DNA from: Elizabethkingia miricola
Lineage (GTDB): Bacteria > Bacteroidota > Bacteroidia > Flavobacteriales > Weeksellaceae
Direction of reading: 5' to 3'
Length of the DNA stretch: 64,000 nt
NCBI RefSeq assembly: GCF_001675285.1
Contig: NZ_LSGQ01000031.1
Coordinates: 1-64,000 of the forward strand
Positions 20,186 to 21,690 of this stretch are shown here, piece after piece. Each line of letters starts with the position of its first letter. Within the stretch, counting starts at the first letter, position 1. The translations under genes were made by a program, and so were the position numbers. The notes beneath the pieces were generated by a model. That model was not told where the DNA came from. It searched no databases and worked only from the letters and a program-made list of their open reading frames with translations.

Positions 20186-20193
20186 TATATTTG
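20186..20193 (+). promoter_or_regulatory. lysC: -7 promoter box of the lysC leader
   Basis: TATATTTG, a full TAnnTTTG match. The expected start of transcription (about 20200) is 13 bases before the leader-peptide ATG at 20213. Confidence 0.65.
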
Positions 20194-20212
20194 CCCACAG
20201 AAAAAATAAGAA

Positions 20213-20269
20213 ATGATATTGTCTAACTTAAAAAAGGGAAAGAAACAGAACTTGCGTAGAACTTCGTGA
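20213..20269 (+). CDS. Putative leader peptide of the lysC attenuator
   Basis: 18 residues, MILSNLKKGKKQNLRRTS, with four Lys in five codons (LKKGKK) and two Arg. It starts right after the predicted transcription start and ends before a strong terminator that precedes lysC. Its last codons and stop (TCGTGA, 20264-20269) can pair with TCACGA (20315-20320) in the loop and 3' arm of the terminator. Stalling on the Lys codons would leave TCGTGA free to pair and block termination, while a ribosome at the stop codon would cover it. This is the logic of classical amino-acid attenuation. Confidence 0.55.
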   Translation: MILSNLKKGKKQNLRRTS

Positions 20270-20304
20270 GTCATTTTCCTTTGGTTAGAATCGAAATATA
20301 TAAG

Positions 20305-20334
20305 GAGCTTGTCATCACGACAAGCTCTTTTTTT
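20305..20334 (+). terminator. Attenuator-type terminator in the lysC leader
   Basis: 9-bp perfect stem GAGCTTGTC / GACAAGCTC, loop ATCAC, followed by seven T. It lies between the lysC promoter and the lysC start codon, so it must be read through for lysC expression. Confidence 0.85.
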
Positions 20335-20370
20335 GCTTATAATCTAATCATTAACAATTTAAATATATTT

Positions 20371-21690
20371 ATGAAAGTATTGAAATTTGGAGGGACATCA
20401 GTAGGAAGCCCGGAAAGAATTGAACAATTATTACCTATTATCACATCTCAGGCTGCAGATAAACATCTGGTTGTATTATCTGCTGTTTCCGGAACCACAA
20501 ACGATCTCGTTGCATTATCCGAGCTATACGCCAAAAAAGAAGACAAAGCCGTTCAAAAGCATATTGATATACTTTACGATAAATATAAAAAGTTTGTAAA
20601 AGAACTATTCAGAACCGAACCTGGAACTTTAGAAGCATTAGCTTTTATCGACAATATATTTCAGTTACTGTATAAGTTTGACAGTACAAATTTCACTACT
20701 AAAGAAGAACGTATTATCTTAGCTCAGGGTGAGATTATTTCCACTACTTTATTTCATCTGCATTTAAAAGAAATAGGTATTTCTTCAGTATTATTATCAG
20801 CATTAGACTTTATGCTTATTGATAAAGAAGGTGAACCTGATGTAGAATACATAAGAGAACATGCCTCTACTGAAATGGCGAAATTCTCTGATGAAAAATT
20901 ATTTATAACCCAGGGATATATTTGCCGAAACGCACAAGGTGAAATTGATAATTTGAGAAGAGGAGGTTCAGATTATACAGCATCCTTATTAGGAGCTGCG
21001 CTACAGGTAGAAGAAATTCAGATTTGGACAGATATCGACGGGTTTCACAACAATGATCCCCGACATGTACCAAACACAAAACCTATTGCACATTTAAATT
21101 TTGATGAAGCTGCCGAGCTATCTTATTTCGGAGCAAAGATTCTGCATCCGCAAAGTGTTTTTCCTGCAAGAAAATATAATGTTCCCGTTCGTTTATTGGA
21201 CACCATGAACCTCAGTGCACCGGGAACTTTGATTTCGGGAGAAACAAAAAATCTAAATCAAATTGTAGCTATTGCTGCCAAAGATAATATTACTGCAATT
21301 CGTATTGAGTCTTCCAGAATGTTAATGGCTTATGGATTTTTGAGGAAAATTTTTGAAGTTTTTGAAACCTATAAAACTCCAATTGATATGATTACTACCT
21401 CGGAGGTAGCAGTTTCTCTGACGATTGATCAAACCGAATTCCTATCAGATATAATAAAAAAATTAGAATCTTTCGGAACTGTAGACATTGATTATGATCA
21501 ATCTATCATTTGTATTGTTGGTGATTTCAAAAAAAACAATCATGGTCTGGCAACTATAGTTTCTGAAGCTGTAAAGCATATTCCGGTACGAATGATTTCT
21601 TATGGTGGAAGTGAAAATAATATTTCATTATTAGTTCCAACAAGTTATAAAATTGAAGCACTAAGATCTCTGCACAACAGATTGTTCTAA
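20371..21690 (+). CDS. lysC: Aspartate kinase
   Basis: 439 residues from the ATG at 20371. A 35-codon upstream extension of the frame runs through the attenuator hairpin and is not coding. The kinase domain starts MKVLKFGGTSVGSPERI (ATP-binding KFGGTSV), continues with RGGSDYTASLLGAAL and DIDGFHNNDPR (aspartate and ATP site), and two ACT domains follow from about residue 300. It is monofunctional, with no homoserine dehydrogenase part. It phosphorylates aspartate, the first step to lysine, diaminopimelate, threonine and methionine. The ACT domains predict feedback inhibition; the leader predicts transcriptional attenuation. Confidence 0.95.
   Translation: MKVLKFGGTSVGSPERIEQLLPIITSQAADKHLVVLSAVSGTTNDLVALSELYAKKEDKAVQKHIDILYDKYKKFVKELFRTEPGTLEALAFIDNIFQLLYKFDSTNFTTKEERIILAQGEIISTTLFHLHLKEIGISSVLLSALDFMLIDKEGEPDVEYIREHASTEMAKFSDEKLFITQGYICRNAQGEIDNLRRGGSDYTASLLGAALQVEEIQIWTDIDGFHNNDPRHVPNTKPIAHLNFDEAAELSYFGAKILHPQSVFPARKYNVPVRLLDTMNLSAPGTLISGETKNLNQIVAIAAKDNITAIRIESSRMLMAYGFLRKIFEVFETYKTPIDMITTSEVAVSLTIDQTEFLSDIIKKLESFGTVDIDYDQSIICIVGDFKKNNHGLATIVSEAVKHIPVRMISYGGSENNISLLVPTSYKIEALRSLHNRLF

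Follow-up and report, generated by a model that had tools for sequence, protein, structure and literature searches.

The 185 bases that precede lysC in Elizabethkingia miricola very likely act as a ribosome-mediated transcription attenuator which, judging from comparative sequence analysis and folding models, would sense charged tRNA-Lys. Attenuation itself is of a known kind; the surprising part is the relation of this leader to the known Bacteroid-trp leader, of which it is probably a codon-swapped derivative, with Lys codons in the place of Trp codons. The window, by which we mean the whole stretch of 64,000 nucleotides analysed, carries the arrangement on its forward strand. Read directly, the 185 bases consist of a -7 promoter box of the Bacteroidota TAnnTTTG type (TATATTTG, 20186–20193), an 18-codon leader peptide frame followed by TGA (MILSNLKKGKKQNLRRTS, 20213–20269; ATG at 20213–20215, stop at 20267–20269) and a terminator, after which lysC, the predicted regulated gene, begins with the ATG at 20371 and extends to 21690. 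No clear -33 box was seen upstream of the -7 box; in nearly all relatives a TAnnTTTG box occupies roughly the corresponding position. A sequence-only reading of this DNA had described the -7 box, four Lys codons in five, a strong terminator at 20305–20334 and the lysC ATG, all of which we confirm, with the terminator stem placed at 20302–20330 and its T-run reaching to about 20334. lysC stands alone, its downstream neighbour lying on the opposite strand, and its 439-residue product matches the aspartate kinase model TIGR00657 at 299 bits (cut-off 209); against the best equivalog model, lysine-sensitive aspartokinase 3, it scores under the cut-off. Coding of lysC from a GTG at 20266 through the terminator was considered and rejected, since the alignment of relatives begins at 20371 (MKVLKFGG).

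The control codons of the frame, AAA AAG GGA AAG AAA at 20231–20245 (K7 K8 G9 K10 K11), place Lys at positions 7, 8, 10 and 11. As the sequence-only reading had proposed, the leaders of relatives were aligned. For this, 80 named genome contigs and, within the family, 320 genomes were searched for lysC loci; the outcome was 54 distinct leaders with 46 distinct frames, drawn from Elizabethkingia, Chryseobacterium, Paenimyroides, Myroides and Flavobacterium. The control codons proved to be conserved: Lys8, Lys10 and Lys11 are present in 46/46 distinct frames and Lys7 in 43/46, and the TCG TGA end is present in 45/46, while codons 9, 16 and 17 are variable, codon 16 being R, Q, P, S, H or K. Both lysine codons are used at the three invariant positions (AAA/AAG 15/31 at Lys8, 2/44 at Lys10 and 33/13 at Lys11). 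Positions 8, 10 and 11 therefore change synonymously only, which argues for selection on lysine rather than on particular bases. A short, putatively translated frame with several codons for the amino acid of the operon thus stands in front of lysC. We note that 20230–20236 reads A AAA AAG over codons 6–8, which is the slippery sequence of dnaX frameshifting; after a -1 shift there, a ribosome would soon run into TAG.

Three alternative structures are predicted in the leader: a long stem, a terminator and an antiterminator. The long competing stem (20222–20289, forward strand), a rival of the antiterminator that was absent from the sequence-only reading, appears in the predicted folds of the window and of its relatives, and pairs the Lys codons and the stop region with bases 3' of the stop, the terminator then following. 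Its outer arms are UCUAACU (20222–20228) and GGUUAGA (20283–20289), its middle arms lie at 20233–20241 and 20274–20282 (a AAGGGAAAG-type arm with UUUUCCUUU), and its inner hairpin is formed by ACUUGCG (20250–20256) and CGUGAGU (20265–20271). The whole leader folds at -36 kcal/mol (z -3.95), and the leaders of relatives adopt the same general shape when folded. The outer pairing is kept despite letter changes, as TCTAAC/GTTAGA in Chryseobacterium, TTTATATC/GATATAAA in Myroides marinus, CAAATAAGG/CCTTATTTG in Myroides guanonis and TTGGATT/AATCCAA in Flavobacterium. The long stem escaped RNAalifold on the MAFFT alignment, since its register differs from genus to genus, and the arms were therefore examined by an alignment-free swap test. 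In 20 divergent leaders the native arms paired at a mean of -13.5 kcal/mol versus -10.0 for swapped arms, and 0 of 100,000 permutations equalled the native value, a figure that is not a strict probability, the sequences being related.

The intrinsic terminator upstream of the structural gene (20302–20334, forward strand) has a 12-bp stem, a 5-base loop, AUCAC, and the T-run; the stem at 20302–20330 folds at -17 kcal/mol (shuffle z -6.25). Compensatory changes, which had been suggested as a check on the terminator, are present in the alignment of relatives at five terminator pairs, and the additional long stem likewise favours its native arms. The antiterminator would be formed by TCGTGA (20264–20269), that is, the last sense codon plus the stop, which overlaps the inner hairpin, and by TCACGA (20315–20320) in the terminator loop and 3' arm, both on the forward strand. 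This complementarity had been placed correctly in the sequence-only reading, and the pairing survives loop changes in relatives, where substitutions of A to G or C to U yield G-U pairs. Taken alone, the TCGTGA...TCACGA match is no rarer than chance, with 2 forward matches in the genome versus 8 for a control pattern; the part that lies above chance is the fold of the whole leader and, above all, conservation across five genera. By simple count, the stop region and the terminator loop can form a helix of at least 6 bp in 51/54 lys leaders, the other 3/54 having only 5 bp. The antiterminator is short, 6–7 bp, the mean helix being 6.3 bp in lys leaders and 6.9 bp in the trp leaders considered below (at least 6 bp in 42/43 distinct records), versus 4.3 bp with the loop letters shuffled. 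In about nine trp leaders (L154, L201, L231, L236, L240–L242, L244 and L248), the stop codon does not coincide with TCGTGA but lies on one side of it or the other, and the hexamer or a loop-complementing variant (e.g. TCGTGAA/TTCACGA) is nevertheless kept; this element is therefore conserved as RNA and not only as codons. These observations bear on the possibility that we are looking at a plain constitutive terminator or leader RNA, or an sRNA acting elsewhere, without any cis regulation of lysC. The terminator is indeed strong in every full-length fold, as such a reading would have it, but the complementarity between frame end and loop, conserved beside a full terminator, would be hard to explain otherwise than by regulation, and the arrangement accompanies lysC across families; we give this reading almost no credence.

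The folding of the growing transcript indicates how the position of a ribosome could decide between the structures. The transcript ahead of the ribosome was folded once 5 bases past TCACGA had emerged, with the leading edge of the ribosome placed 15 bases downstream of the P-site codon's first base, an E. coli value. Over the set of 54 leaders, the antiterminator had a median probability of 0.000 without a ribosome, 0.006–0.042 with the A site at codons 5–9 and 0.957–0.981 with the A site at codons 10–13, and a ribosome beyond codon 13 covers TCGTGA. The rise sets in precisely at the invariant Lys10, and the switch point matches Lys10 and Lys11. An antiterminator that excludes the terminator, dependent on ribosome position, is thus predicted by computation as a transient state of the growing transcript. 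At equilibrium, the full-length terminator of lys leaders always wins, the antiterminator being near 0 once at least 9 bases follow TCACGA, and the mechanism therefore needs a kinetic head start. Classical attenuators likewise depend on a kinetic lead.

The frame, its conserved Lys codons, the three structures and their kept pairings come out of the sequence analysis; we infer that the frame is translated, that ribosomes stall at its Lys codons, that ribosome and polymerase are coupled and that read-through changes. RNA polymerase would start just past the -7 box, and a ribosome would begin on the leader frame. With ample lysine, the ribosome would reach the stop and cover TCGTGA, the terminator would form and lysC would be left untranscribed. 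When lysine is short, the ribosome would halt with Lys10 or Lys11 in its A site, its front covering codons 14–15, where the inner hairpin has its 5' arm, and thereby freeing TCGTGA, which would pair with TCACGA as the latter emerges; the terminator would then come too late, and the polymerase would enter lysC. Should translation fail altogether, the long stem would sequester TCGTGA and the terminator would form. Ribosome-mediated attenuation by lysine, the proposal of the sequence-only reading, thus gains support from the conservation of the Lys codons, the kept pairings and the compensated terminator. Of the contrary signs named in that reading, the one open to sequence comparison, loss of the frame or the pairing in related genomes, was not observed.

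Let us consider, however, a real attenuator whose signal is something other than charged tRNA-Lys, such as arginine at codon 15, a general slowing of ribosomes or stalling by a Lys-rich nascent chain. Codon 15 is nearly invariant (CGT/CGC in 45/46 distinct frames), and polybasic peptides can slow ribosomes. The constancy of codon 15 is, however, explained by its position within the inner hairpin arm, codon 16 being free, and a stall at codon 15 or later would cover TCGTGA and lead to termination, the wrong sense for such a signal. The controlled gene, moreover, makes lysine, and the codons at the same place before trpE are Trp. We therefore regard a signal other than charged tRNA-Lys as very unlikely.

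A covariance model (R1) built from the lysC leaders only found dozens of trp-type leaders in the order, with E-values down to 7e-12; this kinship was absent from the sequence-only reading. The trp-type frame reads M(K/R)TI(M/L)NNTWWW(K/N/S)NLRQ(T/S)S and is accompanied by the same core and terminator as in the lysC leader. Downstream lies anthranilate synthase component I (trpE) in many Flavobacteriaceae; in one genome of another family, a trp-type leader (L249) precedes trpB. The Flavobacterium trpE leaders found by the lysC model match RF01692 (Bacteroid-trp), a motif of Weinberg et al. 2010 (PMC2864571), at 74–75 bits (gathering score 49), and one lysC leader, L046, aligns with RF01692 end to end at 46.2 bits, just under the cut-off of 49; the window's own leader gave no match to RF01692 even at E 10. 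The core blocks are identical between lysC and trp leaders. In 395 genomes of the order, an exact-core pattern, its matches sorted by eye, retrieved trp and lys leaders only, plus three unrelated matches, and model R2, run on about 80 genomes to see whether the core also occurs with other amino acids, gave lys and trp leaders, the remaining hits that were inspected being unrelated terminators; accordingly, no third amino acid was found. The common core, together with the match of the trpE leaders to RF01692, makes the lysC leader a probable codon-swapped derivative of the Bacteroid-trp leader, and the wider spread of the trp form makes Trp to Lys the likelier direction.

The trp kinship also bears on whether the leader might sense lysine or another small molecule directly, in the manner of a riboswitch, the small frame being incidental. 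The strong conserved structure with its many invariant bases would suit such a view, and lysC is under a riboswitch in Gammaproteobacteria and Bacilli (PMC12925634). Against it, the leader matches neither the Lysine riboswitch nor any other Rfam family above threshold, selection acts on the amino acid, K8, K10 and K11 varying only synonymously, and the homologous leader before trpE carries TGG codons, which codon sensing fits and an aptamer does not; direct sensing is, in our judgement, highly improbable. In the Rfam scan of the window no riboswitch or other family reached its gathering score, and a permissive scan returned only sub-threshold, chance-like matches. A fluoride riboswitch above the gathering score lies near lysC in Myroides odoratus (L040:251–311, minus strand).

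Further trp leaders were met in the course of these searches. In the genome from which the window comes, trpE too is preceded by a WWW leader and a terminator, a putative second attenuator (MKFNTNNTNWWWLSKSMSDLDASSMYYN; L227, G000:C28 at about 71843, outside the window). This Elizabethkingia trpE leader, which RF01692 does not match, has another core, with a potential pairing of ATGTCGGA and TTCGGCAT. L226 (G320:C26) consists of two tandem WWW leaders before trpE, each with a terminator and each a weak RF01692 match. L214 (G1003:C24:29373–29487), likewise a WWW leader, precedes trpB, and its genome contains the lysC leader too; the frame of L214 is offset by one base relative to the core and runs through TCGTGAGC.

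How the leader came to stand where it does is suggested by the distribution of lysC. Of the 320 genomes of the family, no more than 44 contain a lysC match at threshold, 35 of these at no less than 79% identity (Elizabethkingia- and Chryseobacterium-type) and nine distant, at 54–56%. Every close homologue for which the upstream DNA was read carries the leader. In the LysC tree, whose root depends on long outgroup branches, the Weeksellaceae (Elizabethkingia and Chryseobacterium) join the flavobacteriacean Paenimyroides with support of 100/100, or 100/99.9 without outgroups, and the two together nest inside the Myroides/Flavobacterium diversity, the leader travelling with the gene; in the best tree the LysC proteins of Weeksellaceae are grouped as a single clade, with weak support (60/86). 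Tree placement and patchy presence in the family suggest that lysC was transferred horizontally together with its switch, apparently between families. We consider it likely, on these sequence relationships, that a trp leader was copied before lysC, that its Trp codons were changed to Lys in register with the core nearly unchanged, and that it then spread with lysC from Flavobacteriaceae to Weeksellaceae.

Irrespective of the details of this history, lysine biosynthesis is usually portrayed as being under riboswitches, T-boxes or repressors, and a lysine-codon attenuator on lysC would add a control route in a phylum with little-studied regulation. The trpE/lysC leader pair would constitute a natural codon-swap experiment on whether attenuator specificity resides only in the control codons; if the codon-swap reading is true, attenuators can be re-addressed by replacing codons. 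Because this kind of attenuation works only if the ribosome keeps pace with the polymerase, it would also offer a handle on whether transcription and translation are coupled in Bacteroidota. Members of this phylum mostly initiate translation without Shine-Dalgarno sites.

Lastly, we compare the leader with known systems. Our search, which covered mainly papers outside the subscription literature, found no report of lysine leader-peptide attenuation of lysC; an earlier description elsewhere is possible. The Lysine riboswitch (L box) resembles our proposal in placing lysC under lysine control and in being able to act by termination; it differs in being a ligand-binding aptamer without a leader peptide, and its model is unmatched in the window. 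In Lactococcus lactis, a leader gene has been predicted upstream of lysQ (PMC4833913, citing Lopatovskaya et al. 2010), which is alike in being a candidate for leader-gene attenuation before a lysine-named gene; lysQ differs in encoding a permease in a Firmicute. Structured 5' leaders and clues of leader-peptide attenuation before amino-acid operons are described in Flavobacterium psychrophilum, with pheA and hisG among the conserved 5' elements (PMC9723704); the section of that report consulted names no lysC or lysine case. The classical proteobacterial attenuators (trpL, hisL, thrL, ilv/leu) share with the lysC leader a short frame rich in the relevant amino acid, competing stems, a terminator and a decision made by ribosome position. 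To our knowledge, lysine is not among the amino acids under such classical control. In those bacteria, a riboswitch controls lysC (PMC12925634). Unlike the classical attenuators, the lysC leader would build its antiterminator by pairing the end of its own frame, at the stop, with the loop and 3' arm of the terminator. Bacteroid-trp (RF01692) likewise encodes a leader peptide about 18 codons long, places its control codons around positions 9–11 and shares with the lysC leader the core (C/T)TTACGTC-N5-TCGTGA and the terminator GGCTTGTCATCACGACAAGCC; it differs in standing before trpE or trpB with TGG TGG TGG at codons 9–11, whereas here the gene is lysC and the codons are Lys, at 7, 8, 10 and 11.
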